Shown piece after piece: positions 32,667-51,851 of a stretch of 64,000 nt of DNA; position 1 is the stretch's first letter; every line of letters starts with the position of its first letter. A program made the translations under genes and the position numbers. Source of the stretch: Winogradskyella costae (GTDB taxonomy: Bacteria > Bacteroidota > Bacteroidia > Flavobacteriales > Flavobacteriaceae); assembly GCF_013403865.1 (NCBI RefSeq), contig NZ_JABFDK010000002.1, positions 248,001-312,000 on the forward strand, given 5' to 3'. The notes beneath the pieces were generated by a model, which did no database searches, was not told the origin of the DNA, and saw only the letters and a list, made by a program, of their open reading frames with translations.

Positions 32667-32845
32667 ATTTAAACATATTTTATTTCATTTCTATTTCTAT
32701 GTGAGAAACTCTAACTTTAGATTTTCTTACACCCAAACATCTATTTTTTTAGATTAAAAATAGTCATCCACAAAAGCAGTGCAATAAGAGTTGTGTAGTT
32801 AATTATTGAAAATTATGATGCTTTTATAATACATGTAACAGTTTA

Positions 32846-32890
32846 TGTTACAATAGTTGTAATGGTAATTGCTTAATTTCCATATCATTG
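32846..32890 (+). promoter_or_regulatory. AraC-type operator and promoter A, upstream of the hybrid sensor pair
   Basis: Half-site TGTTACAATAGTTGTA at 32846-32861 shares its first 12 bases exactly with a half-site at 39009. A -7-like TATCATTG (one mismatch) starts at 32883, exactly 37 bases after the half-site start, as at the two other sites. A second partial unit TGTAACA lies at 32834. The distal half-site expected 21 bases upstream (32825) is weak. This suggests autoregulation of the sensor genes. No terminator was seen in 32667-32921. Confidence 0.6.
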
Positions 32891-35861: not shown

Positions 35862-35929
35862 TTTAAAAAAATATTGCTGATAGATTGATATTGAGAATAT
35901 TGACTTATATTTAATACCAATTGATAATT

Positions 35930-38791
35930 ATGAACTTAAAGTACATTGTAATTTTCTTCATAATGCCATTGCTCTGTGTTGGGCAGAGTGAAAAGAAAAT
36001 AGATGCTTTAAAAAAATACATAAGGACTTCCAAAACGTTTTCTGAAGAAGGTCAAATTGATAGTTCTTATCATTACGCTAAAATGAGTTATACTTTAGCG
36101 AAACAACTTCAAGCCGATACTTTACAATTACAAATCGTAGGTACCTTGAGCTACTATGAACCCGATTTAGACAAAGCATTGGTGTTTTTATCAGAATCGG
36201 AACCCATTGCTATAAAGCACAAACAATGGAAATATTTAGAGGGTATCTATAATGTAAGAGGCAGCCTGTTTTATCATAGAACTAAAGATGAACGCGCGCT
36301 AGTTCATTTTCTAAAATTAGACTCACTTTTAGAAAAGAGAAATGATGACATCTTTTTGGCAGCTATGAATAAAGTGAATATTATTAATATCCTATATGAT
36401 TCGCGAACTGCAAATGATACTAGTTTTTTTGCTCAGATGAATAAAAATATCAAAGACGGACTTCATCTGGTTAATGAGGGTTTGAAGATTAGCAAGGACA
36501 GTCTTAAATTCTATAATGCGTATTATCTTAATGTCCCAGCTGCTATTCTGTATGAAAAAAAGGCCTATATCCATGTTCAACGAAAAGAACCTAAAAAGGC
36601 CATTGCTAATTATCAAAAGGCACTTTTAAATACAGGATATGTCGATTCTAAATTTACGGATAACCCACTTAGAAAATCTTTAATCTATAATGGACTAGCA
36701 AATCTATATGATAGAGAAAATCAAAACGATTCGGCCTTACACTATTATAAGAAGGAGTTAGTAGCTATTTTTAAAACTACAGATACATTAATGCAAGCCA
36801 TATCTAATTATAAAATTGCAGAGTTTTATAATAATAACAACGATCCCAAACTAGCATTAATTCACCTAAACACCTCTCAGGCATTAATGGAGAGCGCTTA
36901 TTTTATTCGTGAAGAACATCTATATAAGATACAAGAAATTCTGGCTAGTGTTTATTCTAATCATGGCGACTACAAAAAAGCTTTTGAAGCTTCAGAAAAG
37001 GCTAGGAATTATCTTATTAAAATTCAGACTGCGTTTAATAAAGAAAATGTGTCTGAGCTTGAAACCAAATATCAGACGGAAAAGAAGGAACAAGAAATAG
37101 CCCTGTTAAAATCTCAAAAAGAGATTGAAGAACAACACAATAAGAATCAAAAAAATATGTTTTTGGGAGGTATGAGTGTCCTTTCTATTGCGGGTTTGTT
37201 TCTGTTTTTTCTCTATCGAAATCGTCAACAAACAAATACTAAATTAAAAGAGTTAGATGTTTTAAAATCAAACTTCTTTACCAATATTTCACATGAGTTT
37301 CGTACACCGTTAACCTTAATATCTAATCCTATAGAGGATATATTGTCTGATGAAACAATTTCAGACAAAAAACGTCAACAATTTACAGTGGCAAAACAAA
37401 ATTCTGAACGTCTTTTAGAACTTGTCAATCAATTATTGGATCTATCAAAAATTGATGAAGGCCATTTAAAATTACAATTACAACGCGGTAATGTACTTCA
37501 GTTTATTTCGGGTTTAAGTGAATCCTTTTCTTATGCTGCTAAACAAAAGAATATAACATATACAATTGCTATCGCACAAGCTGAAGAAGCTGTTTGGTTT
37601 GATAAAGACGTCATAGAAAAAATAACCATTAATTTATTGTCTAATGCTTTAAAATATACAACTACTAACGGTACAATTTTATGTAAAGCTTATATTGAAA
37701 ATCATGATCTATTACTGAATGTTACCAATTCAGGTAGAGGTCTAACACCTTTTGAACTCAACAATATTTTTGAACGTTTTTACCAAACCAATGCACAAAA
37801 TCATGGTTCCGGAATCGGTTTAGCTTTGGTAAAAGAACTTGTAGCCTTGCACCATGGTAAAATTGAAGTTAAGAGTGAAGTAGATAAAGAAACGTCCTTT
37901 GAAGTTCGTCTTTCTGTAGATAGAAAAAGCTTTAAAAATAATGTTATTATAGTAGCGTCTAATGCCAAGGTTGAAACAGAAATACCAGTTTACCTCAATC
38001 CAACAAATGAAGATAAAGACGCTATTATGGATAGTGACTTGCCTATCTTATTAATTGTTGAAGATAATGATGACTTAAGACATTTACTGATTCAAATTTT
38101 TGAAGAAGACTACAATATTATATGGGCTTCAAATGGAAAAATCGGAGTAGATTTAGCTTTAGAGCAGATACCAGATCTTATTATTTCTGATGTTATGATG
38201 CCAGAAAAAGATGGTGTTTCACTAACTGAAGATTTAAAAAATGATGAACGGACAGCCCACATTCCTATTATATTACTCACAGCTAAAGCAGGAGTCGAAA
38301 GTAAATTTAAAGGCATAGATAGTGGTGCAGATGATTATATTACCAAACCATTTAATAAAAAATTATTAGTACTTAAGGTTGAAAAATTAATTGAATCTAG
38401 ACGACAATTACAATTACGCTATAGCCAAGAATTGGTGTTATTACCTAAAGACATTGCCATTACCAATCTAGATGAAAAATTTCTTAAAAAAGTAGAAACT
38501 GTTTTAGAGAAGCACCTTATTGAACCATCATTTAATGTTACAGATTTTTCAGATGGCGTTGGAATGAGCCGCATGCAGCTACATAGAAAATTAAAAGCTT
38601 TAACCGGACTTACAGCCTCCGAATTTATTCGTTCGCAACGTCTAAAACTTGCGGCCAAATTATTAAAGACGTCTGAGATTAATGTATCTCAAGTAGGCTA
38701 TTCTGTAGGTTTTAATGACCATTCTTATTTTACAAAATGCTTTAAAGAAACTTATAACTGCACACCATCTGAGTTTGCAAAACGTAGTTAA
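35930..38791 (+). CDS. Hybrid sensor: periplasmic TPR, histidine kinase, receiver, AraC-type HTH (copy 2)
   Basis: Protein of 953 residues, paralogue of the gene before it. The cytoplasmic half is highly similar (NISHEFRTPLTL, LLDLSKIDEGHLKLQLQRGN, LLIVEDNDDLRHLL, DLIISDVMMPEKDG, VGYSVGFNDHSYFTKCFKE), while the TPR ectodomain (about residues 25-390) is much more diverged, as expected if the two copies sense different ligands but act on the same DNA sites. All phosphotransfer residues are intact: H-box His, receiver Asp and Lys. I start at ATG 35930 (MNLKYIVIFFIMPLLCVGQ); the longer frame from TTG 35921 adds only three residues. No separate promoter was seen in the 68-base gap, so it is probably co-transcribed with copy 1. 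Confidence 0.93.
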   Translation: MNLKYIVIFFIMPLLCVGQSEKKIDALKKYIRTSKTFSEEGQIDSSYHYAKMSYTLAKQLQADTLQLQIVGTLSYYEPDLDKALVFLSESEPIAIKHKQWKYLEGIYNVRGSLFYHRTKDERALVHFLKLDSLLEKRNDDIFLAAMNKVNIINILYDSRTANDTSFFAQMNKNIKDGLHLVNEGLKISKDSLKFYNAYYLNVPAAILYEKKAYIHVQRKEPKKAIANYQKALLNTGYVDSKFTDNPLRKSLIYNGLANLYDRENQNDSALHYYKKELVAIFKTTDTLMQAISNYKIAEFYNNNNDPKLALIHLNTSQALMESAYFIREEHLYKIQEILASVYSNHGDYKKAFEASEKARNYLIKIQTAFNKENVSELETKYQTEKKEQEIALLKSQKEIEEQHNKNQKNMFLGGMSVLSIAGLFLFFLYRNRQQTNTKLKELDVLKSNFFTNISHEFRTPLTLISNPIEDILSDETISDKKRQQFTVAKQNSERLLELVNQLLDLSKIDEGHLKLQLQRGNVLQFISGLSESFSYAAKQKNITYTIAIAQAEEAVWFDKDVIEKITINLLSNALKYTTTNGTILCKAYIENHDLLLNVTNSGRGLTPFELNNIFERFYQTNAQNHGSGIGLALVKELVALHHGKIEVKSEVDKETSFEVRLSVDRKSFKNNVIIVASNAKVETEIPVYLNPTNEDKDAIMDSDLPILLIVEDNDDLRHLLIQIFEEDYNIIWASNGKIGVDLALEQIPDLIISDVMMPEKDGVSLTEDLKNDERTAHIPIILLTAKAGVESKFKGIDSGADDYITKPFNKKLLVLKVEKLIESRRQLQLRYSQELVLLPKDIAITNLDEKFLKKVETVLEKHLIEPSFNVTDFSDGVGMSRMQLHRKLKALTGLTASEFIRSQRLKLAAKLLKTSEINVSQVGYSVGFNDHSYFTKCFKETYNCTPSEFAKRS

Positions 38792-39008: not shown

Positions 39009-39074
39009 TGTTACAATAGTCATAGCAATTGTTACATAAGTGATATCCTTCTCACATCTTACAATCTACATTTA
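39009..39074 (+). promoter_or_regulatory. AraC-type operator and promoter B, upstream of the first fibre operon
   Basis: Direct repeat TGTTACAATAGTCATA (39009-39024) and TGTTACATAAGTGATA (39030-39045), offset 21 bases (two helical turns, as in AraC araI1-araI2). A -7-like TACATTTA (one mismatch) starts at 39067, 37 bases after the second half-site start; the -33 position overlaps the operator and lacks TTTG, as expected for an activator-dependent promoter. The first reading frame starts about 38 bases downstream, at 39112. Confidence 0.75.
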
Positions 39075-39111
39075 CTACATACTTCTTCCCTGCAGTAGTA
39101 ATATCGTTCTA

Positions 39112-39264
39112 ATGGTTAAAAAAGCAAACAGTATTAAAGGTGAAATAGATCACTTCCCTGAGTATCAAATTTACCTCAATGTTAACCATTTAGAAAAAGG
39201 TACATATACCTTAAAAATAACGCATAAAAACAAAGTTATAAAAACAACCACGTTTAAAAAATAG
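39112..39264 (+). CDS. Small basic protein resembling the end of a T9SS type A sorting domain
   Basis: A 50-residue frame with no signal peptide, starting MVKKANSIKGEIDHF and ending YTLKITHKNKVIKTTTFKK. The ending looks like the last beta hairpin of a type A sorting domain (compare YLLKIYTDKGKATKKIVIK at the end of the protein at 51877). It is the first frame after promoter B and ends four bases before the next ATG, so it would be translated as the leader gene of the operon. It could be a real small protein, a coupling leader peptide or the remnant of a lost T9SS cargo. The longer frame from 39040 would begin upstream of the predicted transcription start and is not used. Confidence 0.5.
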   Translation: MVKKANSIKGEIDHFPEYQIYLNVNHLEKGTYTLKITHKNKVIKTTTFKK

Positions 39265-39268
39265 TATT

Positions 39269-40672
39269 ATGAAATCACAGATTCTCAACTTCCAAAGAAA
39301 ATATCTAAAAATGAGAAAGGTACTATTTGCAGTGCTTGCTATTTGTTTGATGTCAATTTCAAGTTATGCGCAAACGGGTTTTAATTATAAAGCACTAATA
39401 AAAGATACAAACGGGAACGTTTTAAGCAATCAAGAAATTGATATACGATTCACAATTCAAACGCTCGAAGGACCTGTTTTTATTGCTTCATATCAAGAAC
39501 TTCATTTAACCACGACAGATAGTAATGGTATTGCAATTGTTACCATAGGTGAAGGTGAGATTATAACAGGAAGTTTTCCTGACAACTTTTGGCTTCCTAA
39601 CATTACACTTAACACAGAAATAGATATAGAAAGAGATGGCACATTTGTAGATTTTGGTGAATCTAATTTCAAAAAAGTCCCAATGGCAACTCATGCCGAT
39701 AATGTTTTTAGTGGAGATTATAACGATTTAATTAATCAACCGACAATTGTAGAACCATTTGGATTAGAGGCGATTGATGAAGGAAGTGGCATAGGTTGGC
39801 GATTAATAGGTCAAAATCCAGATAACTATGGCTCAGTAGGAAATGGTGCTGTCGATTTAAGTCAATCACCAAATAGTGCAACTAATGGCGCTACAGGTGA
39901 GTATTCTATAGCAATGGGGAATCAAACGGGTGCTTCAGGAGATAATTCGACTGCAATGGGTTTTGGTACAAGTGCATCAGGTGATAATTCTACTGCGCTA
40001 GGTAAGAACACTTTTGCTTCATCAGAAAATTCAGTAGCAATAGGTTGGTTAAATGTAGATGTGCCCGATGCGCTTTTCATGATTGGTAATGGATCTGCGG
40101 AAGGAGGATTTACGACTAGTAATGCTTTAACCGTTTTAAAAAATGGTAACGTGATTGCTGGTGGACCATTTACAATCGAAAACGCAACAGACGCTACATC
40201 TTTATGGCGACTAGAAACGCGACCTAATGGAGGCTTATCCATGTATAGAAATGGAAACTATCGTGGTTTTTTTAGTGAATTTACAGGTAATTATTCATCT
40301 ATTTCTGATAGAAGTACCAAAAAAGATATCACAGCCATTGAAAACGGCACACTCAGTAAAGTGATGCAACTCAATCCTGTAAGTTACTTAATGAAGGACC
40401 AAACAGATACCAAGCGTAACTTAGGTTTAATCTCTCAAGAAGTACAGGAGATTTTCCCAAGTATCACCACTTATGTTGAAGAATCAGATTTAATTACGCT
40501 GTCTTATACAGAGTTGATTCCAATACTCATTAAAGCTTTGCAAGAGCAACAAGGTGTTATAAACACACAAAACTCTAAAATAGAAACATTGTCAACAGAT
40601 AATTCAACTCTGGAAAATATGGTTAATAATCTTATTTCAAGAGTAGAAAAAATAGAAACCAATAACCAATAA
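39269..40672 (+). CDS. Trimeric fibre protein with YadA-type head repeats and S74 chaperone domain
   Basis: Exported protein of 467 residues. Signal peptide with a 16-residue polar n-region (MKSQILNFQRKYLKMRK) before the core, cleaved near 35. Residues 37-150 are the cluster-specific N-terminal domain (FNYKALIKDTNGNVLSNQEI, TTTDSNGIAIVTIGEG, VPMATHADNV). About 205-265 holds head repeats of roughly 14 residues (SIAMGNQTGASGDNSTAMGF, ALGKNTFASSENSVAIGW) like those of YadA/Hia adhesin heads. About 345-430 matches the endosialidase-type intramolecular chaperone, peptidase S74 (STKKDITAI, LNPVSYLMK, LGLISQEVQEIFP). A C-terminal heptad coiled coil follows. S74 domains drive trimerisation and usually cut themselves off. 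No T9SS sorting domain, so the export route past the periplasm is unclear. Confidence 0.85.
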   Translation: MKSQILNFQRKYLKMRKVLFAVLAICLMSISSYAQTGFNYKALIKDTNGNVLSNQEIDIRFTIQTLEGPVFIASYQELHLTTTDSNGIAIVTIGEGEIITGSFPDNFWLPNITLNTEIDIERDGTFVDFGESNFKKVPMATHADNVFSGDYNDLINQPTIVEPFGLEAIDEGSGIGWRLIGQNPDNYGSVGNGAVDLSQSPNSATNGATGEYSIAMGNQTGASGDNSTAMGFGTSASGDNSTALGKNTFASSENSVAIGWLNVDVPDALFMIGNGSAEGGFTTSNALTVLKNGNVIAGGPFTIENATDATSLWRLETRPNGGLSMYRNGNYRGFFSEFTGNYSSISDRSTKKDITAIENGTLSKVMQLNPVSYLMKDQTDTKRNLGLISQEVQEIFPSITTYVEESDLITLSYTELIPILIKALQEQQGVINTQNSKIETLSTDNSTLENMVNNLISRVEKIETNNQ

Positions 40673-40683
40673 AAATCAGCACT

Positions 40684-41307
40684 ATGAAACTATACACATT
40701 ATTAATAGTCTTTATTATCACTCTAATATCATGTAAAGAAAGCAATGAAACCAATTCATTAGAACAAAACAAAACAACTGAATCAGTAACTGCAAAGGTC
40801 GCAAATAAAGAAACACCAATTAAAAGTCAAACGATTAGCAATGGCACATTTCTTTGCAAAATTAACGACAAAGATTGGTCTTACACCAAAGCTTCAGGTA
40901 TTGTAGATACACATGCAAAAACAAAAAAACGTACAGCAATAATGACGTTTACCAAGAAACTTGATAAAGGCTCAGAAAGTGTGCAGTTGTTTTACGATGC
41001 GGACACCTATCAGTTAGAAAAAGCTACAGCTATTCTAAAGACTCTAGAAAAAGGAGGTGGTACAATGAGTGCTATGTACCAATTACTTAATGAAGGTGGG
41101 AAGCGTATGCCAGATAGCGCAATTTCAGGGAGCATAGATTTATCTAATGCTACTGCAGCTTCAGGAACAGCTGAGGTTTCAAATATGAAAATCCGTTTTG
41201 AGGAAGGCAAATTAGAAGACCAATCTATGGCGGTAATATCTTTTACATCATTGAAATTTAGTGGTGTAGGTTACTCAGATCTCGATAAAGCATTTGGAAA
41301 TAAATAA
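40684..41307 (+). CDS. Lipoprotein of unknown function in fibre operon
   Basis: Protein of 207 residues with signal peptide MKLYTLLIVFIITLISC and lipobox LISC (Cys17). A polar, Ser/Thr/Glu-rich spacer of about 30 residues leads to a compact domain (FLCKINDKDWSYTKASGIVD, RTAIMTFTKKLDKGSESVQLFYD, ISGSIDLSNATAASGTAEVSNMKIRF). I recognise no family; the beta-rich pattern and calycin-like strand order suggest a small outer-membrane-anchored beta domain. It starts 11 bases after the fibre gene and 22 before the next, so it is part of one transcript. Confidence 0.75.
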   Translation: MKLYTLLIVFIITLISCKESNETNSLEQNKTTESVTAKVANKETPIKSQTISNGTFLCKINDKDWSYTKASGIVDTHAKTKKRTAIMTFTKKLDKGSESVQLFYDADTYQLEKATAILKTLEKGGGTMSAMYQLLNEGGKRMPDSAISGSIDLSNATAASGTAEVSNMKIRFEEGKLEDQSMAVISFTSLKFSGVGYSDLDKAFGNK

Positions 41308-41329
41308 TTAATAAAAAAACACCACCACT

Positions 41330-42910
41330 ATGAAAACTACAATCACACTTGTCTTTGTTGCTTTTAGCTATTTAGGTTTTGCGCAACTTATAGATAATTT
41401 CGGTAAAATAATAACTCATGAAATTATATTGAATAAACAAGATGATGGTACTTATACAGGAGCAGTCGAATGGACAACTGGTGGCCTCGATTCTTTGCAA
41501 CGGTTTGTAATTAATGATCTGAGTATTAAAGCACCAGTTATGGTTAGGATAGTTTCAAAAGCACCAAATTATAATATAGATCTTACATTTCATAAAAATA
41601 ATTGGGATAGCGAGGAAGCTAAAATTTCTACCAACGGAAAGAAATTTGTGGATAAAATATTCAGGACTAAAAATTTGTTGGGTCTTGGTGTGAGTTCAGA
41701 GGTCGCTGGCATTCCCTATTTAATAAGCGTGAGGGTGGGTCTGCAATTTCCTTCTACCCAATCTATCATTCGTGTTACCGATGATAAAGAAGAATATACC
41801 AAGCATCTACGTGGTCTCGGTATTCAAGGAGACCTCTTTGGTGGCAATTCTACACAGAATACGTCACAAAGTACGGTTGCAACAACAGGAAGTTCTGATG
41901 AAAATAATACACTTTTGTACATTATTATAGGTCTCTTGTCAATTATAGCACTACTGTTTGGCATATTCCTTTTTAAGAAAAAGCCTAGAAGCAACGCACT
42001 ATTATTAATGCTTTGTTTCGGTTTTTCACAATTGATGATGTCTCAAAGTCCAGCACCAAATAATGTGCCTATGGCTAATCAATCTGACGTTTTTTTGGAT
42101 TATGCCAATAACAATGTGGCTAATCAAGTGCCGGTAATTTACGATGATCCTGGTTTGATTCCTGCCATGGATAGAGACGCCTATGTGTCAAACGATGGAG
42201 GTAAAACTTACGCGCTAATTAGATTAAGACCTAATCAAGGGGCAATTGAATTGTCTCCTGAAGATGCAGCAGAGGTCAATAGACAAATGCAAGAAGCTAC
42301 CGATGATTTTAATCGAGATTTTAGGGATAATATGCCAGGAGAGGATACCGAAGGCGATCAAAGAACACTCCCCGTTGACCGAACTGCCGAAGAACTTGAA
42401 CAATTAAGAAGGCAAGTACGAAGGCTCCAAGCGGCCGTTGAAAGATTGGAGGCAGAGAATGAAGATGGTGATGACGACGAAACTGAAAACAATCCAGGCA
42501 ATGAAATTTTAATCTATTGTGAAATACGAGAAGAATGCCTCAATTGCATGAATAAACATTTGCAAGATTTTACGACCCATTACGCCTATTATATCCATTT
42601 ACAAGACTATTATTTTTTTAAATCGACTGTGCTGAACGATTACATCACTTGGGGTAATAGTATGTCTAGTTTGCCTGGTGGAGGAGGAATTGGGTGGACG
42701 TCAACCTTATTGCATAAAGTAAGACCTGCCATGAAAAAAATGAAGAAAGCCTATGATAGTAGATTTGATGATTATATAGTATCAATGGAAAAAGATCTCA
42801 GCAATATAAAAAATTGTGCATCCAGTATGCAGCTTGCTAGTTCTGGTACTTATGAAGCACAAGTAGCACAGTTGATACAAGCGCTAAAAGCTGCAAGAAT
42901 CTCAAAATAA
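41330..42910 (+). CDS. Two-part exported membrane protein with internal signal-like segment and coiled coil
   Basis: Protein of 526 residues that I do not recognise. Part 1: signal peptide (MKTTITLVFVAFSYLGFA-Q) and a beta-rich domain at about 20-165. A Thr/Ser-rich linker leads to a transmembrane helix LLYIIIGLLSIIALLFGIFLF at about 195-215, a short basic loop KKKPRSNA, and a second hydrophobic stretch LLLMLCFGFSQLMMSQ that looks like a signal peptide. Part 2 (about 240-526) has a coiled coil near 345-375 (AEELEQLRRQVRRLQAAVERLEAE, split here as AEELEQLRRQ then VRRLQAAVERLEAE), an acidic stretch and a Cys cluster CEIREECLNCMNKH near 398-411, which is followed by helices rich in Tyr. It may be a fusion of two exported proteins. 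Same operon as its neighbours. Confidence 0.75.
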   Translation: MKTTITLVFVAFSYLGFAQLIDNFGKIITHEIILNKQDDGTYTGAVEWTTGGLDSLQRFVINDLSIKAPVMVRIVSKAPNYNIDLTFHKNNWDSEEAKISTNGKKFVDKIFRTKNLLGLGVSSEVAGIPYLISVRVGLQFPSTQSIIRVTDDKEEYTKHLRGLGIQGDLFGGNSTQNTSQSTVATTGSSDENNTLLYIIIGLLSIIALLFGIFLFKKKPRSNALLLMLCFGFSQLMMSQSPAPNNVPMANQSDVFLDYANNNVANQVPVIYDDPGLIPAMDRDAYVSNDGGKTYALIRLRPNQGAIELSPEDAAEVNRQMQEATDDFNRDFRDNMPGEDTEGDQRTLPVDRTAEELEQLRRQVRRLQAAVERLEAENEDGDDDETENNPGNEILIYCEIREECLNCMNKHLQDFTTHYAYYIHLQDYYFFKSTVLNDYITWGNSMSSLPGGGGIGWTSTLLHKVRPAMKKMKKAYDSRFDDYIVSMEKDLSNIKNCASSMQLASSGTYEAQVAQLIQALKAARISK

Positions 42911-42919
42911 ACAAACGCT

Positions 42920-44653
42920 ATGAAAAAACTAAGTCTTCTTTTACTATGTGTATTTGCCATCTATTCTTGTGGTAACAAATCAACTGATTCTAAAAATTCG
43001 AGTACTAGTAATAGTACTCCTTCAAATACGAGCACAGAATCTAAGACATCTGAAAGTGCAACTGATAATCCTTTCAAAGTCGCTACTAATTCCGAATTAA
43101 ACGACCTGTTTAATATGGGGAAGGGTATGCTTGAAGCCTCAGAAAAAAAAGGTGAAGCAGATTTTCAATTAGATACCGAAACCATACTCGATATGTTAGA
43201 AGAAAGTGGAGTGTCTCGTGAGTCCATGGAAAAACTCATCAACAATCCGGATAGCCTTAAAGTACTTGCGCAACAGGCTATGAAAGAGCGGCTAGAAGCA
43301 CAAAACAAAGAAGCCGAAGCCCTTACAAAAGGTGAAATTTCTAAAGAACAGTTGACTTCAAAAAATACACCTACAGGAGTTTCACTAGAAGAAGCTATTC
43401 TTCTAGTTCAAGCAGAATCTGGACCAGAAGCCACTTTAGAAAAATTAAAATTGATTGATTCGTTAGCTGGTACCAACATCATGTCGCAGTTAAATTTAAA
43501 AGAAGGACAGCAGGTATTAAATGATGTAGAACGAAAAAACGAAATTAAGTCAAGTCCAGAAGAAGAGGAAAAGATGGAGTCATTGCGTAAACTTTCCTCT
43601 CAAATGCACAGTGATAAAGAGGCTACAGAATTGTTAGCAGAACTAGATAAGACGGAAAAAGACATTGCTTCTGGAAAATTGAAAGCCAGTCCCAAATATC
43701 AACGCGCCATAGCGTATCGGAAAAAGACAGTTAAAACATATGGTAATCAGATTGTTCGTAAGGCAGCCGCAGCAAAGAAGAAATTTCAGCAACTCAACCC
43801 TGATTTATATTTTGGAGACGATGTTGGAACAACCTATATAAGTTCTCAGAAAACGGCGGTCTATCTACCTCTAGGAAAACTCTCGTTTGCCGATAAAGTG
43901 GTGAAGTTTAACCATCCGAAACTCTTGTCCCAAAAAGTTAATAGTGTGCTTGGTGAACCAGATGTGATTCAAGGTTATCTTCCAGAAGACCTAACAGGAG
44001 TTTACAGTTTAGGATTAGCAGGTACGTTAACAGTACAATTTGAAGACAATGCTCTAACCAATGTAAATGGTCCTGACTTATACATATTTGAAATTGGACA
44101 AATAGAACCAACCGATCTCGAAATTTCAAAAGACGGTAAAGATTGGATTAAAGTGGGTAAGATTGATGGAGGAACTGCTGAAGTAGATATAGGTCCTTTT
44201 GTAAAACAAGGAGACCTTTTCTACTACGTGCGGTTAAAAGATCTTAAAGCAGAAAGCGCACTTCCCGGAGCTGATGTGGATGCTATTGCTGCTATTGGTG
44301 CAGCTATACGTTTAAATTTAGATAGCCAAGTACTATTCGATTCTGGTAAAAGCGAATTAAAACCAAGTGGTATTGAAGCCTTAAAAGAATTGGTTAATAG
44401 CATCACGGTGCTCAAAAAAGGAAAGGTAATCGTAGAAGGCCACACCGATGATGTTGGTAGTGATGCAACCAATAATGCCTTGTCTTTAGCACGTGCTAAA
44501 AGTGTATCGCAAGCATTGAGACAATTAATACCCAGTACAGAATTTAGGTGGCAAGAAAAAGGCTATGGAGAATCTCAGCCTTTAGTAGAAAACGATTCAG
44601 ACATAAACAGAACAAAAAACAGACGGGTAGAAATTTTGATAATGCCTAATTAA
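42920..44653 (+). CDS. OmpA-type peptidoglycan-binding lipoprotein of the fibre operon
   Basis: Lipoprotein of 577 residues: lipobox YSC at residue 17 after MKKLSLLLLCVFAI, then a Ser/Thr-rich spacer to about 50. About 55-300 is a long helical, charged region. About 300-450 is a beta domain (VNSVLGEPDV, VYSLGLAGTLTVQFEDNALT, GPDLYIFEIG, LEISKDGKDWIKVGKI, DVDAIAAIGAA) of a kind found in outer-membrane-associated surface proteins. About 460-577 is an OmpA C-terminal domain (DSQVLFDSGKSELKPSGIEA, VEGHTDDVGSDATNNALSLA, KGYGESQPLVENDSDINRTK, NRRVEIL), which binds diaminopimelate in peptidoglycan. In context it probably ties the fibre apparatus to the cell wall from the outer membrane. It follows the previous gene by 9 bases. 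Confidence 0.88.
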   Translation: MKKLSLLLLCVFAIYSCGNKSTDSKNSSTSNSTPSNTSTESKTSESATDNPFKVATNSELNDLFNMGKGMLEASEKKGEADFQLDTETILDMLEESGVSRESMEKLINNPDSLKVLAQQAMKERLEAQNKEAEALTKGEISKEQLTSKNTPTGVSLEEAILLVQAESGPEATLEKLKLIDSLAGTNIMSQLNLKEGQQVLNDVERKNEIKSSPEEEEKMESLRKLSSQMHSDKEATELLAELDKTEKDIASGKLKASPKYQRAIAYRKKTVKTYGNQIVRKAAAAKKKFQQLNPDLYFGDDVGTTYISSQKTAVYLPLGKLSFADKVVKFNHPKLLSQKVNSVLGEPDVIQGYLPEDLTGVYSLGLAGTLTVQFEDNALTNVNGPDLYIFEIGQIEPTDLEISKDGKDWIKVGKIDGGTAEVDIGPFVKQGDLFYYVRLKDLKAESALPGADVDAIAAIGAAIRLNLDSQVLFDSGKSELKPSGIEALKELVNSITVLKKGKVIVEGHTDDVGSDATNNALSLARAKSVSQALRQLIPSTEFRWQEKGYGESQPLVENDSDINRTKNRRVEILIMPN

Positions 44654-44681
44654 AAAAATCAACAACTAAATCCTTATAATC

Positions 44682-46208
44682 ATGAAAACAGTAAACAATT
44701 ACAGAATCACCTTAATAGTTTTGGTCTTTTCCATAAGAGTACTAACACCATCTCATGGGCAAGACGTACCATCTACTTTTAAGCATGTCGCAACCTCATC
44801 AAATATAAGTAACAATTACACCATAATAGATCATTTAAAAACAAACAGTAAACCGAACAGCTTACTATTTGTTGCTCATGATTATGGCAATGGTGGTCCG
44901 TATATAACTGCACCTCTTGGTGTATGGTATAGCAATAATAAGTGGATCATTTTCACACAAGATAGGTCAGCAATGCCTGTAGGAGCAAAGTTTAACGTGC
45001 TGACTCAAACATTAGCTGATAGCAACGCTTTTGTACATGCGTCCACAAGCGGATCAATTAGCGGTCATATCACCACAATTAATAATTCGGCAACCAATAA
45101 TAAGCCAAATGCAAAACTTATAGTTACTCAAAATTGGGGAACAAGTGGACCTTATAATAATAACCCTATAGGTGTGTACTATGCCAATGGAAAGTGGAAG
45201 ATATTCAATCAAAATAGAGTAGCTATGCCTGCAAATGCTAAGTTTAATGTTATAGTAGATCATCCTAGGGCCTTTCAACATACGGTCTCTAACAACTCTA
45301 CAAGTCATATCTCAACATTAGATAATCCAAGCACCAACAACAGCCCTAATGCTTTCGTTTTTACCACGCAATTATGGACGAGCATTTATAATAATCATAA
45401 TCAAGGACTATGGTACAGTGCCAACAAATGGAAAATTTATAATGAAGATAGAATGACTTTGCCTTCCTCGGCAAAATTTAATGTCATAGCTTTTAGTATA
45501 ACGGATAATACACCAGAAACTGATACTTCAACAGCAATTACTATTCCTAAAACTGTGTTTACTGGCTTGGTCAATTCTTATTTGGGCAGCATGGAAATAA
45601 AACTTAATAATTATGGTAGAAGGCATCGCGACAGCGCTGGAGATATAAGTTGGTTTGCTGAAAATGAATCTTTTGTTCAACTCGGAGGGAATCGATTTAA
45701 TTTTAATATTCCTGAATATACAAGAGGTGTAAGAGATAAAAAATATTACATGAATGATATGAGTCTCAATAATGCTATTACAAATTTTAATGGTGATGAA
45801 TTACATATGATATTAACTTTTGAGGAAGATGGTCCAGAACTAAAGGGCATGTGTTCAAATTGTGCCAGGTTTAGGGAAGACAATGCAGCACCCGACTATC
45901 AACTTGAGGATAATCGTTGGGACGTGCATCTTAACGTTGTTCCGTTTAATGGAAGTTTAACCCTTGATGTTTTAGATGTTAGTTATTTAGGTGACGTAGA
46001 TGGTGCTGTTTTTGGTGAGCTCTTTGAAGGTATTGTTCAGCAGACTGTCATTCCTATTATGGAAAGAGAGTTTAGAGATGCTTTTAATGATCAACGTTCA
46101 GAAATAGCAAGGCAAATTCGAACATTAGCGGATAATATTGGGTTTGATTTAGCGGGTGTAACACGCATTACATTCGAAGGAGGAACTATTGTACTTCATA
46201 ACAATTGA
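44682..46208 (+). CDS. Exported protein with three DUF7452-like repeats and a unique C-terminal domain
   Basis: Protein of 508 residues with a signal peptide ending HGQ near 28. Three tandem repeats of about 80 residues (about 33-108, 112-192, 195-278) each run from FKHVAT/FVHAST/FQHTVS through a conserved Asn-rich segment, L-x-T-Q/AH-x-W/Y-G, a GV/GLWYxxNKWxIxNxDR motif and AMP-x-xAKFNV. I recall this module as DUF7452, found in secreted Bacteroidota proteins; its function is unknown. The C-terminal 230 residues form another domain with a CSNC motif near 388-391 and helical end (FGELFEGIVQQTVIPIMERE). No sorting domain. Surface ligand binding is possible but unproven. Confidence 0.75.
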   Translation: MKTVNNYRITLIVLVFSIRVLTPSHGQDVPSTFKHVATSSNISNNYTIIDHLKTNSKPNSLLFVAHDYGNGGPYITAPLGVWYSNNKWIIFTQDRSAMPVGAKFNVLTQTLADSNAFVHASTSGSISGHITTINNSATNNKPNAKLIVTQNWGTSGPYNNNPIGVYYANGKWKIFNQNRVAMPANAKFNVIVDHPRAFQHTVSNNSTSHISTLDNPSTNNSPNAFVFTTQLWTSIYNNHNQGLWYSANKWKIYNEDRMTLPSSAKFNVIAFSITDNTPETDTSTAITIPKTVFTGLVNSYLGSMEIKLNNYGRRHRDSAGDISWFAENESFVQLGGNRFNFNIPEYTRGVRDKKYYMNDMSLNNAITNFNGDELHMILTFEEDGPELKGMCSNCARFREDNAAPDYQLEDNRWDVHLNVVPFNGSLTLDVLDVSYLGDVDGAVFGELFEGIVQQTVIPIMEREFRDAFNDQRSEIARQIRTLADNIGFDLAGVTRITFEGGTIVLHNN

Positions 46209-46243
46209 AAAAAATTAGCATCAAAATTTTAAAGCAAAAAAAC

Positions 46244-46852
46244 ATGAAAAATTTAGTAATTCTCATTACACTAGTTTTTGCTCTATTGCCGCTAAAAGCG
46301 AGCAATGAGATCATCTATAAAAAAGATGCTAGTACAATTCTGAATTCTAATTTAGATACAGATTTAGATATTTTTAAAATTAAGCAGGATATAGAAACAC
46401 GTAATAGAGTCTATTATATGACAGGTTCTTTTACCGTAATTAAAACACCCACTGGGCGTGAAAGTGATGTAGCGCATACAGTTGATATTTCTTTTCGTAA
46501 TGCTACGATTAAATCATCAGGAGAGAGAAATAATTATATACAAGCAAATGCACAAGCCATACGCAACGATAATAATACTATTAATGAGTTTAGAATCTAT
46601 ATACCTCACGGTAGTGGAGAAGATGGTAGTGTAGATGAAAGAAACATAAAGGTAAATTGGAAAACTGGCTCTATTGAAGTGGTTGACAAACTGGACAATG
46701 TATCCATAATTTATAAAGAGCACACAATTCTGATTATTGGTACTATGGAAAAAAACGGATACACTATAGGAGTCAGTCTTGCTCTTGCTAAAAAACAAAT
46801 TGAAATAACCCACGAAATTGAACCTCATAATGTACAACCTCGTAAAAATTGA
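46244..46852 (+). CDS. Exported protein of unknown function
   Basis: Protein of 202 residues with signal peptide MKNLVILITLVFALLPLKA. No family recognised. The mature part is polar and beta-rich (VYYMTGSFTVIKTPTGRESD, SVDERNIKVNWKTGSIEVVD, HTILIIGTMEKNGYTIGVSL). I start at ATG 46244, where a normal signal peptide begins; the longer frame from TTG 46205 overlaps the previous gene by four bases and adds a charged extension that would disturb the signal. It lies 35 bases after its neighbour in the same transcript. Confidence 0.7.
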   Translation: MKNLVILITLVFALLPLKASNEIIYKKDASTILNSNLDTDLDIFKIKQDIETRNRVYYMTGSFTVIKTPTGRESDVAHTVDISFRNATIKSSGERNNYIQANAQAIRNDNNTINEFRIYIPHGSGEDGSVDERNIKVNWKTGSIEVVDKLDNVSIIYKEHTILIIGTMEKNGYTIGVSLALAKKQIEITHEIEPHNVQPRKN

Positions 46853-46893
46853 AATACAAGTTCTGATTTAAACAAAATTTAAAAATTATAACC

Positions 46894-47940
46894 ATGAAAT
46901 CAAAAATATACGACTGTCAAACCAACTTTTTAACGATAAGTAAACCCAAATTAACACTATTAGTTGCACTTTTAATTACAGCATTAAGTTTTGCACAACA
47001 AGGCATTAATTATAAAGCGCTTATTAAAGACAATTTAGAAAACGTTTTATCCAGTCAGTCTATTAGTTTACAGTTTCAAATACGTGAAGCCACAGCAAAT
47101 GGTACTGCCGTTTATACAGAAACGCATACAGAAACGACAGACGCTAACGGCATCCTAATTTTAAACATTGGTACTGGTACTACCGGTGACATATTTACGG
47201 ATATTAATTGGAGCAGCAATGATCATTGGCTAAATGTACAGATTGATATTACAGGAGGTACTAATTATATTGATATGAGTACTACTCAATTTATGGCGGT
47301 GCCTTATGCTCTAGTAGCTAAAAATGTAGAAAATGAAATTTGGGATACCAATAATACAAATGCGTTTTATATTGAAGGTAATGTTGGTATTGGTATCAAT
47401 TCTCCAATAAATCCTTTATCCGTACTTCAACCTACAGGCCATACCAATACTGTTAAAATTGAAACATTAGAACATCCTTCAGGAAAAGATCTTTTAGAGC
47501 TTATAGTTCCTCAAGGTTCTACAGGTGGTTCTCAATTTATAGAAATGCAGAATGGACCTGATATTGTAGCAGCTGTGAATAGTGATGGCTCGGCACAATT
47601 TAAATCGGTTCAATTTGGAGATGGTTCTTTGCAAACAACTGCTTATTCAGATGCTGTTGACAATGGCCCTATTGCCTATGGTACTATAAGTTCCACGGGA
47701 TCGATACTCAGTGGAACAGGTAATTTTACAGTAGATGATACAAATGCACCTACTTTCTACATTAATGTAACAGGGTCAAGTTTAAGTCATACCAATAGTT
47801 CAGCTTCCATCACTCCATTATCTGGTCAGTTTAGAACGGCTAGTATTACACATTCAAATGGTGATCTAAGGGTCTATATTTTTAATTCTAGTGGAACACA
47901 AGTAGCAAACACATTTCAATTTGTTATTTATAAACTATAA
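46894..47940 (+). CDS. Fibre-like exported protein sharing the cluster N-terminal domain (second copy)
   Basis: Protein of 348 residues. The n-region MKSKIYDCQTNFLTISK is unusually long and similar to those of the proteins at 39269 and 49596; cleavage near 35 (LSFA-Q). About 37-150 is the shared domain (INYKALIKDNLENVLSSQSI, TETTDANGILILNIGTGT, WLNVQIDITGG, FMAVPYALVAKNVENE). It continues with IEGNVGIGINSPINPLSVLQ and IEMQNGPDIVAAVNSDGSAQFKSVQFGDGS, patterns typical of phage-tail-like and trimeric fibre shafts, and ends in a beta-rich tip of about 95 residues. There is no S74 domain and no T9SS sorting domain. Probably a fibre or tip subunit. Confidence 0.75.
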   Translation: MKSKIYDCQTNFLTISKPKLTLLVALLITALSFAQQGINYKALIKDNLENVLSSQSISLQFQIREATANGTAVYTETHTETTDANGILILNIGTGTTGDIFTDINWSSNDHWLNVQIDITGGTNYIDMSTTQFMAVPYALVAKNVENEIWDTNNTNAFYIEGNVGIGINSPINPLSVLQPTGHTNTVKIETLEHPSGKDLLELIVPQGSTGGSQFIEMQNGPDIVAAVNSDGSAQFKSVQFGDGSLQTTAYSDAVDNGPIAYGTISSTGSILSGTGNFTVDDTNAPTFYINVTGSSLSHTNSSASITPLSGQFRTASITHSNGDLRVYIFNSSGTQVANTFQFVIYKL

Positions 47941-47961
47941 ATTTTTTTAAACATAAAAACC

Positions 47962-48582
47962 GTGAAAAACCTCATCACACTTGTCGCATTAGTTCTAATA
48001 GTCGCATGCAAATCGGAAACGAAAGAAAACAACGGCTCAACTGCAAAAAACGAAACAAAGCAAGAAGTCTCCAAATTAAGTAACTCTAGTGCAAATTACA
48101 GTAGCTTATTTGATACTTATACATGCGATATTGGTGTAGCTGAACTCGCTAAAGTGCTACAAATACCAGTTTCTAATATTACGGCACAAACAAGTAAAGC
48201 GCTAAACGAATGTCTTTTTAAAATCAAAGGTTTTGGTGATGGTCACGATAATACAGGGACTACATGGCGTTTAATGTCAGTGCCTAGTAGTAAGGGACAA
48301 AGCAAAAAAGAAATTGCAAACCTTTTAAAAGACAAAGCAGAGTTACCAAGCAGAATAGTTATGGGCAGAGATATCGTATTAGCAGATGCTGGCGATTGCT
48401 ACATCGCATCTCAGCCAAGGCGAGGTATAGTACGCATATTAAATGAAAACTATGACAGCTTTATTGTTGTTACGTACCAAACTAAAGCTTCAGTACAAGG
48501 TAGAACAGCAGAACAGCACGATGCACTAAAACTAAAAGCTAAGGATTTGGCGAATTATTTGGTTACAACACATAAAAAATGA
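47962..48582 (+). CDS. Lipoprotein of unknown function, last gene of the first fibre operon
   Basis: Protein of 206 residues starting with GTG: MKNLITLVALVLIVAC, lipobox IVAC (Cys16), then a polar linker. The domain at about 50-200 contains two Cys (TYTCDIG, NECLFKIKG) plus GDCYIASQPRRGI. No family recognised. GTG is the only in-frame start that gives a complete lipoprotein signal. It follows the fibre gene by 21 bases; site C begins 15 bases after its stop. Confidence 0.75.
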   Translation: MKNLITLVALVLIVACKSETKENNGSTAKNETKQEVSKLSNSSANYSSLFDTYTCDIGVAELAKVLQIPVSNITAQTSKALNECLFKIKGFGDGHDNTGTTWRLMSVPSSKGQSKKEIANLLKDKAELPSRIVMGRDIVLADAGDCYIASQPRRGIVRILNENYDSFIVVTYQTKASVQGRTAEQHDALKLKAKDLANYLVTTHKK

Positions 48583-48597
48583 CATTAAATCCTAGCA

Positions 48598-48663
48598 TGT
48601 TACATAAGTCATAACATTTGTTACAACAGTAACATGCTAAAAATGAAGTGATTTATAATTTAG
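48598..48663 (+). promoter_or_regulatory. AraC-type operator and promoter C, upstream of the second fibre operon
   Basis: Direct repeat TGTTACATAAGTCATA (48598-48613) and TGTTACAACAGTAACA (48619-48634), offset 21 bases. -7-like TAATTTAG (one mismatch) starts at 48656, 37 bases after the second half-site start, the same as at sites A and B. The flanks also match site B (TAGCA before the first half-site). AGCATGTTAC/GTAACATGCT at the two ends additionally forms an inverted repeat. Confidence 0.75.
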
Positions 48664-48748: not shown

Positions 48749-49273
48749 ATGAAAAATTCAATTTTAATTTTATTACTACTAGTAATTTTTAGCTGTGAAA
48801 CAGAAATTCCTGAAACAGATACAATTGATCCAACATTTAGTTTGCACCTCAAAAGTGCAAGTTTTGAACATACCTTCACGCAAGATGATGACTTTGATAA
48901 CATTATACTCAGATTAAAGGACGATGAAGGTTATCAATTTTCTTTAACAAGTGTTGATGATGGTGGAGTGAGAATAGTTCATTGGCAAGTACCTGGAGAT
49001 GACCATATACATTTTGACAATGCTATAGTAAACCCATGGACAATTAGAGATATATCGTCTGCCAGCAGAATGATTGAATTTTTAGGCGACCGAAATGATC
49101 CTTATGGAGCGGCTATAATCAATGGGAAATTCAGAGCGAAAGGTAATCAGGCATTTGTTATTTTCGGGATTTTTGTCTCTGATTTTGGCGGCGAATCTGC
49201 GAATTACAATTCCACCTCAATAGATTTGAATATAGCTATCGGTCCTTGGGAAGCAGAAGTTATTAACGATTAA
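48749..49273 (+). CDS. Lipoprotein of unknown function, first gene of the second fibre operon
   Basis: Protein of 174 residues with signal MKNSILILLLLVIFSC and lipobox IFSC (Cys16). The mature part is beta-rich and acidic (FSLHLKSASFEHTFTQDDDF, IILRLKDDEGYQFSLTSVDD, HIHFDNAIVNPWTIRDISS). No family recognised. It lies 85 bases downstream of the -7 element of site C. Confidence 0.75.
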   Translation: MKNSILILLLLVIFSCETEIPETDTIDPTFSLHLKSASFEHTFTQDDDFDNIILRLKDDEGYQFSLTSVDDGGVRIVHWQVPGDDHIHFDNAIVNPWTIRDISSASRMIEFLGDRNDPYGAAIINGKFRAKGNQAFVIFGIFVSDFGGESANYNSTSIDLNIAIGPWEAEVIND

Positions 49274-49595: not shown

Positions 49596-50858
49596 ATGAA
49601 ATCAAAGATTTACAATTACCAAAACGAATATATTAATATGTGTAAAACTGCAATGACATTGCTCATCGCGCTTTTCATCTCATTGGCAAGCTTTGCCCAA
49701 AGTCCTGGCATCAACTACAAAGCGGTTATAAAAGACGATAGCGGAAACGTTATGGTCAACCAAAACTTAAAGGTAAAGTTGGCCATTATAGATTTGCTTG
49801 ATAACGTCGATTATGAAGAAACCCATACCACAACAACCGATGCCAATGGTATTATAATATTGATTATTGGAGATGGCACAGAAGATATTACAGGAAATTA
49901 CTCTGATTTAGATTGGCCCAACGGATTTTATAGGTTGCAAGTAGATATAGATATAGCACCTTATGATAGTTTCATTACAATGGGGACTACCGCTTTTCAG
50001 GCGGTTCCGTATGCTTATTCCTCTATGGATAATTTATGGCAGCTATATGATGATAATGCTATTGCGCTTGCCGAAAATATAGGTATTGGCACAGATACTC
50101 CTACAGAGCTTTTACATATTTATAATGATGATAAAGCAGCCATTAACTTAGAGGTATCAAATTACACGGACCAAACCCAAATAGAGTTTAGAAATGGATC
50201 GGAAACCGGTTTTCATTCATTTTATAGAATTTTAAACCAAGACGATGATCTAAGATTTGAATTAGATACAGACCTTTCAGGTACAGGAGAAGGATATGAA
50301 AGCAAAATGACACTTTCTAATTCAGGATTGGAATTAGAAAATGGTACACGAATAAATGAGTTTTCTACTGATGGAACATTAGCTGGAAACAGTAATAATG
50401 CCATACCTACTGAAGCTGCGGTAAAAGCTTATGTGGATAATCGTGGTCAATCTAACTATTGGAAAAACGACAATCTAAATACAAATTATATTACTGCAAC
50501 TAGTACATATCAACCTATAGGACCAGTATTAATAATTAATAAGGAATTTTCAGATTCAAACATTGAAGTCACGTTAAATTCACGAGTAAATGGTGGAGTT
50601 TTTTCTAGTCCCAGTGTTAATGGTATAAATTTTAAAATTCGAATTGATGGTATAGAAACTACCTTAGATAATATAGGTAGTATTATTGACTCAAATACGA
50701 TAGACTTCTTATCAATATTTGCTGTTTTTGAAGGGCTTTCAGTAGGGTCGCATACGATACAAGTTTATGCTAGTACAGCTCCATTTGGGACTTCATCGAA
50801 TGTTGGTTTAGATCCTGGAGGATGGAATGGCGCTATAATAGCAAAGGAAACTTTTTAA
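49596..50858 (+). CDS. Fibre-like exported protein sharing the cluster N-terminal domain (third copy)
   Basis: Protein of 420 residues. The n-region MKSKIYNYQNEYINMCK is close to those at 39269 and 46894; cleavage near 35 (ASFA-Q). Shared domain at about 37-148 (INYKAVIKDDSGNVMVNQNL, THTTTTDANGIIILIIGDGT, TAFQAVPYAYSS). The next section, ENIGIGTDTPTELLHIYNDD, is a typical opening of fibre shaft segments, and EAAVKAYVDNRGQ near 270 is a phrase common in phage-tail-like fibres just before the tip domain. The last 140 residues are a beta-rich tip related in style to that of the second copy. No S74 or sorting domain. The first ATG is preferred over the Met at residue 15 because the long n-region is conserved. 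Confidence 0.75.
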   Translation: MKSKIYNYQNEYINMCKTAMTLLIALFISLASFAQSPGINYKAVIKDDSGNVMVNQNLKVKLAIIDLLDNVDYEETHTTTTDANGIIILIIGDGTEDITGNYSDLDWPNGFYRLQVDIDIAPYDSFITMGTTAFQAVPYAYSSMDNLWQLYDDNAIALAENIGIGTDTPTELLHIYNDDKAAINLEVSNYTDQTQIEFRNGSETGFHSFYRILNQDDDLRFELDTDLSGTGEGYESKMTLSNSGLELENGTRINEFSTDGTLAGNSNNAIPTEAAVKAYVDNRGQSNYWKNDNLNTNYITATSTYQPIGPVLIINKEFSDSNIEVTLNSRVNGGVFSSPSVNGINFKIRIDGIETTLDNIGSIIDSNTIDFLSIFAVFEGLSVGSHTIQVYASTAPFGTSSNVGLDPGGWNGAIIAKETF

Positions 50859-50948: not shown

Positions 50949-51851
50949 ATGAAACAGATAATTAATTTACTGATGCTCTTAGCGGTTTTACCACTAGCAT
51001 CACAATCCATGGAAAAATTCAGCATCGATTCAGGAGGTGCATCAGTAACCGCAGGAGGTATTCAAATGCTTTATACCATTGGAGAAGTCAATGTACAAGA
51101 ATTAAGTGCTGGAGGGATTTCGTTATCTGAAGGCTTTATAAATCCAGTGAGCTTAATGATAAAGCTAGATCCCAAAATATTTTTGGAAGGGCCTTATAGT
51201 GCTGGACAGATGAATGATGTTCTGCGTAGTACCGATAATATCCCAACATCAAGTCCTTATGTAGATAATGCCACCTGTAATGTTACGGTTTTTGATACCA
51301 CAGGATCTAATGCCATAATAGATTGGATATGGATAGAGCTACGCGATAGTAATGATGGTATAACAGTATTAGGAGAAACGTCGGCACTTTTACAAGCCGA
51401 TGGTGATGTGGTAGCTACGGATGGTATTTCGGTAGTAAATATCAATGTGTCTCCTGGAAACTATTATGTAATGGTTAGTCATCGTAATCATTTAGGAGTA
51501 TTAACTGCTAATCCTATCAATCTATCAGGAAGTGCAACAGTGTTAGATCTTACTGCTAATAGTGTATTAGTAATGGGTGATGCAAATGGTATAGCCAATA
51601 TGAGCGACGGTAATTATGCACTTTTTGCCGGTGATTTTGATGGAAATGGACAAATACAGAACAGTGATGCTGTTGGGGCATTACCATTTATTGGATTATC
51701 GGGATATTTAAATGCAGATATCGATATGAACAGTCAGGCACAAAATACTGATATACTCACTACATTAAACCCAAATATTGGTAGAGGTGAACAATATTCT
51801 AGCCGACAACTTTTTGCAAAACGTAAAACAACAACTGAAAATGATAATTAA
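50949..51851 (+). CDS. Hemagglutinin-like secreted protein with C-terminal dockerin-like repeats
   Basis: Protein of 300 residues. Signal peptide to about residue 20 (PLASQS), then the motif GGASVTAGGIQMLYTIGEVN and LSEGF common in Bacteroidota secreted proteins. Residues 75-205 form a beta domain of the hemagglutinin type (LEGPYSAGQMNDVLRSTDNI, IIDWIWIELRD, MVSHRNHLGVL). The C-terminus has two calcium-loop repeats of about 24 residues, GDFDGNGQIQNSDAV and ADIDMNSQAQNTDIL, the second followed by NPNIGRG; this is the duplicated F-hand pattern of type I dockerins. It lacks a T9SS sorting domain. The next gene (25 bases downstream) may encode a cohesin-like partner. Confidence 0.8.
   Translation: MKQIINLLMLLAVLPLASQSMEKFSIDSGGASVTAGGIQMLYTIGEVNVQELSAGGISLSEGFINPVSLMIKLDPKIFLEGPYSAGQMNDVLRSTDNIPTSSPYVDNATCNVTVFDTTGSNAIIDWIWIELRDSNDGITVLGETSALLQADGDVVATDGISVVNINVSPGNYYVMVSHRNHLGVLTANPINLSGSATVLDLTANSVLVMGDANGIANMSDGNYALFAGDFDGNGQIQNSDAVGALPFIGLSGYLNADIDMNSQAQNTDILTTLNPNIGRGEQYSSRQLFAKRKTTTENDN

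Follow-up and report, generated by a model that had tools for sequence, protein, structure and literature searches.

Tandem hybrid two-component regulators and a 21-bp direct-repeat operator as the probable control of a surface-fibre island in Winogradskyella costae

Hybrid two-component systems (HTCS) are best known for regulating glycan use. Escherichia coli AraC, at araI1-araI2, occupies a direct repeat of half-sites, spaced by about two helical turns, beside the promoter core. Here we describe an island of genes in a 64,000-nucleotide stretch of the W. costae genome (NZ_JABFDK010000002.1, positions 248,001 to 312,000), hereafter the window, in which two tandem HTCS genes (HTCS1 and HTCS2) are followed by two operons, A and B, for surface fibres and other surface proteins; all positions are those of the window, and all features lie on the + strand. 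A sequence-only reading of the window had proposed, with AraC as precedent, that the AraC domains of these HTCS bind matching operator-promoters before the operons and before their own genes. E. coli AraC differs from the present HTCS in being a soluble sugar-sensing protein with no phosphorelay and with unrelated targets. Our analysis makes it highly likely that the island is a local regulon of the two HTCS, which would bind repeats offset by 21 bp and switch on operons A and B.

The closest described operators are those of Bacteroides HTCS, which, like the present proteins, join histidine kinase, receiver and AraC-type domain in one polypeptide and use direct repeats with an average period of 21 bp (Ravcheev et al. 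2013, PMC3878776). Since 16-bp sites with a 5-bp spacer are described there for HTCS_Man, the operator considered here is of a known kind; the AraC precedent stands as far as direct-repeat geometry goes, and the published HTCS motif is the nearer one. Bacteroides HTCS carry COG3292 or COG1879 sensors and belong mostly to SusC/SusD glycan loci (PMC3878776), whereas the present system has a tetratricopeptide repeat (TPR)-type sensor, fibre and lipoprotein targets, and a microprotein encoded first. The closest functional analogue is FimS of the FimS/FimR pair of Porphyromonas gingivalis, likewise a periplasmic TPR sensor kinase for a surface-fibre operon, which activates fimbriae (PMC11053733). 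FimS differs in its separate response regulator and in the kind of fimbriae, and the partial matches of HTCS1 and HTCS2 to the FimS model NF053520 (157 and 114 bits) fall far below the cut-off of 600. The fibres themselves recall the chimeric MAT fibres of Bdellovibrio in their signal peptide, N-terminal beta domain, S74 and non-S74 members, and variable tips (PMC10769870); the match of the N-terminal domain is below cut-off, the fibres here are predicted from their genes, and no predator lifestyle is implied.

Operator A (39009..39045) is formed by the 16-bp direct repeats TGTTACAATAGTCATA at 39009 and TGTTACATAAGTGATA at 39030, and operator B (48598..48634) by TGTTACATAAGTCATA at 48598 and TGTTACAACAGTAACA at 48619, with an offset of 21 bp in both; operator A is conserved at the same place in relatives. 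TGTTACAATAGTTGTA at 32846 is the proximal half-site before HTCS1. Each proximal half-site starts 37 bp before a -7 box with one mismatch to TAnnTTTG, namely TACATTTA (39067..39074, in a conserved register), TAATTTAG (48656..48663) and TATCATTG (32883..32890, with aligned counterparts in three relatives). The five 16-mers, two offsets and three distances given in the sequence-only reading were all reproduced. With the -7 box placed at -12 to -5 (PMC9723704), the two half-sites span roughly -70 to -55 and -49 to -34, and transcription from operator A is predicted to start near 39079. Single half-sites with up to three mismatches are mildly over chance in the window (110 against 74 expected, standard deviation 9), and the four perfect ones all belong to the sites already listed by that reading. 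It had also proposed a search of the whole genome (4.13 Mb), in which the 37-bp pair with up to three mismatches was found at two places only, operators A and B, with none in the reversed control; a looser pattern added one three-mismatch site elsewhere, for two control matches.

The same layout recurs in relatives. In 1.61 Mb from 109 relative loci (some places occurring twice, e.g. L032/L062 and L050/L066), the offset is 21 in 50 pairs, and no other offset between 10 and 44 has more than nine; 43 of the 50 have TAnnTTTG, with up to one mismatch, at +37, and none of the other distances between 16 and 79 has more than two. A pair with its -7 box stands within 320 bp after the stop codon of 42 of 52 HTCS (850-1050 aa, counting the two of the window), but of only nine of 735 other open reading frames (ORFs); these loci were chosen by HTCS similarity, except for two stretches without HTCS. 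In 299 genomes of the family, taken as Flavobacteriaceae, a 66-bp pattern (up to three mismatches) occurred in 65, with zero reversed-control matches. Where a genome has a close HTCS relative (E up to 1e-150), pair and box were present in 36 of 43 cases, compared with 29 of the 256 genomes lacking one. Both the linkage of sensor and operator and the conservation in related genomes, which the sequence-only reading had named as a check, are borne out by these counts.

The fetched loci contain 125 distinct sites, with pair and box together allowed up to three mismatches. Of these, 44 stand behind a short HTCS and 25 behind a long one, 13 are elsewhere in a locus with an HTCS, three are placed before an HTCS, and for 40 the locus has no HTCS; only two of the 125 lie inside an ORF of more than 150 aa. 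Short and long HTCS were separated by length alone (1050-1100 aa), and HTCS cut by contig ends may be misfiled (e.g. L219, L252, L274). These loci, like those for the 91 microproteins discussed below, were also picked by operator or microprotein matches, so adjacency rates in them are not unbiased; the whole-genome searches, and 27 distinct microproteins from loci fetched after the microprotein search, give fairer figures. The motif is not private to TPR-type sensors, since propeller-type HTCS carry the operator too. An exclusive link to such sensors is ruled out by the 25 sites behind long HTCS, the three long HTCS scanned with Pfam being all propeller types.

HTCS1 (32922..35861, 979 aa) has a signal peptide (by eye), a TPR sensor part, HisKA, HATPase_c, a receiver and an AraC-type HTH_18 domain by Pfam; HTCS2 (35930..38791; ORF listed from a TTG at 35921, likely ATG at 35930) has the same order of kinase, receiver and AraC domain and is 57% identical. 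The complete hybrid core (HisKA, HATPase, receiver and AraC helix-turn-helix (HTH) in one chain) is present in both, and they are HTCS with a variant sensor. Their TPR repeats are well over the Pfam cut-off in HTCS1 and give sub-cut-off matches in HTCS2, and the Pfam scan found no propeller Reg_prop domain in either protein; the four short HTCS scanned for TPR were over the cut-off in HTCS1 and L059, below it in HTCS2, and without a match in L062. The recognition segments of both AraC domains are near-identical (MSRMQLHRK[IL]KALTG; SYF[AT]KCFKE), and the earlier proposal that these domains use the predicted sites is well supported. Winogradskyella marina and W. bathintestinalis both encode close relatives of these HTCS. 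The latter has a homologous island with the same operator (L060), behind an HTCS whose sensor is of the propeller/Y_Y_Y kind and which, from kinase to DNA-binding domain, shares 74% identity with HTCS2; judged by these similarities, regulator, operator and targets are retained there and the input module differs.

A 50-aa microprotein (39112..39264), recognised by profile and conservation and overlooked in the sequence-only reading, is the first ORF after operator A. Its homologues follow 39 of 44 sites behind short HTCS and 13 of 24 behind long HTCS, compared with one of 39 sites whose locus has no HTCS and one of 13 whose locus has an HTCS elsewhere; seen from the regulators, a microprotein lies within 900 bp of 37 of 53 short and five of six long HTCS. 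Whole-genome searches gave 81 matches in 67 of the 299 family genomes, and a phylum-wide draw gave matches in eight of 345 genomes, six of them of the same family; the match in G485 is doubtful because it sits in a 303-aa frame. The 91 distinct copies in the fetched loci are all in short ORFs, and 83 start 91-349 bp past an HTCS stop codon; four of the other eight lie farther from an HTCS and four have no HTCS upstream in the available stretch. A relaxed TGnnACA pair at an offset of exactly 21, with a -7 box at exactly +37, accompanies 79 of the 83, against at most two at other offsets (15-29) and at most one at other box distances (30-45). An HTCS stood just upstream of 25 of the 27 microproteins from the later loci, at least one of these HTCS being already known. 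A variant operator with TGAAACA or TGGAACA half-sites in the same 21-bp and 37-bp register is seen before the microprotein after many long HTCS (L283, L285, L291 and L295 are examples). In L060 a TPR-type microprotein accompanies a propeller sensor, so that the microprotein type there goes with the regulator rather than with the sensor, as a cytoplasmic partner would, although simple linkage fits as well.

Of 118 first genes downstream of the sites, 100 resemble secreted proteins under a simple heuristic with an unmeasured background rate. Three first genes under 90 aa were set aside, and 114 remained usable; with three HTCS genes, one duplicate and one very long ORF omitted, a Pfam tally (n=109) gave the T9SS (type IX secretion system) tail 15 times, S74 14, OmpA nine, YadA head eight and DUF7452 seven. 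SusC/SusD were not among the 25 most frequent first-gene families (27 rarer families being unlisted), and a Pfam scan of 18 proteins encoded between 30764 and 56128 of the window found no SusC/SusD neighbours either. The regulon appears, from its predicted members, to differ from one for glycan use in consisting of MAT-like fibres, OmpA lipoproteins, DUF7452 proteins and T9SS-type surface proteins.

DUF7452 occurs in 17 of the 299 genomes, 15 of which carry HTCS. Of the 21 DUF7452 genes counted, seven are preceded by a strict site at no more than 300 bp: two of these sites follow an HTCS (G287, G076), and five have no HTCS in the locus (G198, G054, G274, G233, G279). In the window the DUF7452 gene is part of operon A. 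The five distant sites match what would be expected of a regulon that acts in trans. Operator-bearing DUF7452 genes far from any HTCS are seen in L214, L227, L248, L264 and L269. An in-house profile had indicated seven such distant targets, of which L226 has only a T9SS tail by Pfam; five were kept because the Pfam tally of seven includes L202 and L205. In G157, of the same genus, two further operators follow its first, and a fourth (G157:C1:2945913, L172) lies far from the HTCS, before a putative lipoprotein cluster with an F1-like gene; no HTCS was found within that 16-kb stretch. At operators without a local HTCS (L215, L216, L224, L238, L256), the first gene repeatedly encodes a small lipoprotein in which an 'NPV[ST]KKIKE'-like stretch comes directly behind the lipid-box cysteine; a ribonucleotide-reductase-like gene, named by eye, is nearby in L215, L216 and L224.

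The site before HTCS1 (32825..32861) is probably an autoregulatory operator. Because a degenerate distal half, TATAATACATGTAACA, lies at 32825, 21 bp upstream of the proximal half at 32846, we regard it as a weak pair; a lone half-site is ruled out, the degenerate half having counterparts in three other genomes. Similar arrangements precede HTCS genes in W. marina (L059), G157 (L171) and G097 (L184), and the aligned promoters of all four retain TATAA..TATGTAAC (CATGTAAC in the window), a proximal TG.TACA core and an ATTG-ended -7-like box; full pairs precede HTCS in L064, L173 and L205. The autoregulation put forward by the sequence-only reading has these counterparts in its favour, but the site is degenerate and this is the weakest part of the interpretation. 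Feedback of the HTCS on their own genes is plausible, and less certain than their control of operons A and B.

We propose that the TPR-type sensor part would read a periplasmic cue, upon which the fused kinase would phosphorylate the receiver and two AraC-type domains would bind side by side on the 16-bp direct repeats, two helical turns apart. Sequence and conservation show a constant spacing between the repeats and a sigma-A -7 box; the repeats thereby fall at about -70 to -34, a position from which an activator could stand in for a -33 box. Binding would then turn on operon A (the microprotein, S74 and non-S74 MAT-like fibres, the OmpA lipoprotein, the DUF7452 protein and others) and operon B (a lipoprotein, a fibre and the T9SS-tailed protein), the weaker site before HTCS1 would give feedback on the HTCS pair, and the fibres and surface proteins would be displayed at the cell surface.

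Several observations weigh against this proposal. Ten of the 52 HTCS lack a site at the threshold used; three of these are first genes of tandems (L059, L171 and the window) and in L188 the box is two mismatches off, leaving six unexplained (L073, L077, L198, L199, L200, L208). Fisher values, such as the 9e-22 obtained for the co-occurrence across genomes, overstate independence because the genomes are related; cross-talk could arise in genomes with several HTCS because propeller HTCS share the motif; the upstream site at 32825 is degenerate; and 14 of the 21 DUF7452 genes are without such a site within 300 bp upstream. Nor does the sequence evidence directly separate activation from repression, and the HTCS might bind the operators yet mainly repress the operons until the signal arrives. 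At the position of S/CHIP, present in 43 of 59 HTCS inspected, both receivers read AHIP, and departures from S/CHIP have been tied to altered inhibition of DNA binding, with binding without phosphorylation and possible repression (PMC11253607). We nevertheless hold repression to be improbable, as about 21 bp separate the end of the repeats from the -7 box, where an activator usually sits, and a -33 TTTG is missing in 123 of 123 sites (partly forced by the motif letters; the shorter TTG occurs in 11 of 123). That a different AraC-family regulator binds the sites, the adjacency of the HTCS being incidental, seems to us very improbable indeed: the genome does encode a third HTCS-like protein (C3) and AraC-type HTH proteins (C4, C11, C44), but the adjacency recurs after 42 of 52 HTCS, 25 of 125 sites follow long HTCS, and HTCS and operator co-occur across genomes.

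A separate doubt concerns the microprotein, which might be no more than a leader that is translated, or the remnant of a T9SS sorting tail, and functionless as a protein. It is usually the first ORF after the operator, and Pfam and NCBIfam gave sub-threshold similarity only, mainly to T9SS sorting tails and Y_Y_Y; Por_Secre_tail scored 21.5 and 22.6 bits against a cut-off of 27 (E 1e-4 to 3e-4) in two of four copies, the other two having no match. Against this stand the narrow length (42-68 aa, median 49), the spread over 67 of 299 genomes, the lack of any signal peptide seen with a simple script, and the distribution of nucleotide differences over codon positions 1, 2 and 3 (57/29/167 in 13 independent pairs, picked at 75% or more amino-acid identity over the last 40 residues). 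Since the ATG is in place in 87 of the 91 copies and the differences follow this codon pattern, the microprotein is very probably translated and under selection, and we regard a functionless leader or relic as rather unlikely. The part of a T9SS sorting tail to which the microprotein bears a weak likeness is its final strands.

The remaining genes of operon A, with ORFs and signal peptides called by simple scripts, begin with a MAT-like chimeric fibre (39269..40672) that has YadA head repeats and a C-terminal S74 chaperone/protease by Pfam, its SDRSTK fitting the S74 motif SDxxxK (PMC10769870). They continue with a putative lipoprotein (40684..41307; family F10, five loci; no Pfam match), a secreted or membrane protein (41330..42910; F3, 13 loci; sub-threshold Pfam match only), an OmpA-family lipoprotein by Pfam (42920..44653; F1, the commonest island family, 32 loci), the DUF7452 protein by Pfam (44682..46208), a putative secreted protein (46205..46852; F24; no Pfam match), a MAT-like fibre without S74 (46894..47940) and a putative lipoprotein (47962..48582; F4, 10 loci; no Pfam match). 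Operator B is followed by a putative lipoprotein (48749..49273; F12, five loci, by family comparison), a second MAT-like fibre without S74 (49596..50858), a putative secreted protein of an 'EKFSIDSG' family, recognised by sequence comparison, that recurs after operators in relatives (50949..51851), and a protein with a T9SS type A sorting domain by Pfam/NCBIfam (51877..52803; ORF listed from a TTG at 51778, likely ATG at 51877), the only ORF of the island with this C-terminal domain. The predicted model of the OmpA lipoprotein (mean pLDDT, the predicted local distance difference test score, 56) was not used. Two very long ORFs lie upstream of the island, at 14177-21481 (2434 aa) and 24686-30625 (1979 aa).

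The fibre identity claimed by the sequence-only reading agrees with the YadA head and S74 of the 39269 protein and with an N-terminal domain common to the 39269, 46894 and 49596 proteins, which has weak similarity to the Bdellovibrio MAT N-domain; Pfam found no S74 domain in the latter two. NF053851 matched the three at E=7.5e-5, 2e-8 and 7e-7, the best score being 34.2 bits against a 60-bit cut-off. In the whole genome it gave five matches at E up to 1 (these three, one on C11 at 2.1e-5 and a doubtful one there at 0.054), and one of 14 control genomes gave a sub-cut-off match. The label MAT-like fibre is fair for all three on these similarities, with family membership short of proof. No relatives of the 46894 N-domain were found among PDB sequences at E up to 1, and a phage origin was set aside, tblastn finding no match for it in 50,697 phage records. 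The predicted structure of the 49596 protein is confident in the N-terminal domain only, and its fold comparison (best Z 7.0, root-mean-square deviation 4.8, 93 aligned, beta-sandwich domains) was uninformative.

What is new here, compared with the operator itself, is the TPR-type sensor, the fibre and surface-protein regulon and the microprotein, whose family may be new; among the matches listed from the open-access literature, with subscription papers and preprints outside it, neither a TPR-HTCS fibre regulon nor its microprotein was found. More tentatively, and as a possibility we would not put at even chances, the island could exemplify a class of surface-remodelling regulons in Flavobacteriaceae, in which a single operator code is common to HTCS whose sensors, TPR or propeller, are interchangeable, and a regular cytoplasmic partner of about 50 aa serves as feedback brake or adaptor; the microprotein, made first from the HTCS-proximal promoter, would act back on the HTCS, and a cue would trigger deployment of sets of fibres and surface proteins. 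Our findings also reveal a conserved and unannotated family of microproteins, below common gene-calling lengths, that accompany these regulators. The 21-bp and 37-bp operator rule is precise enough for genome-wide prediction of targets, including those far from any HTCS, and offers a direct handle on the timing of MAT-like fibre production. An HTCS clade of marine flavobacteria appears here to run surface fibres rather than glycan use.

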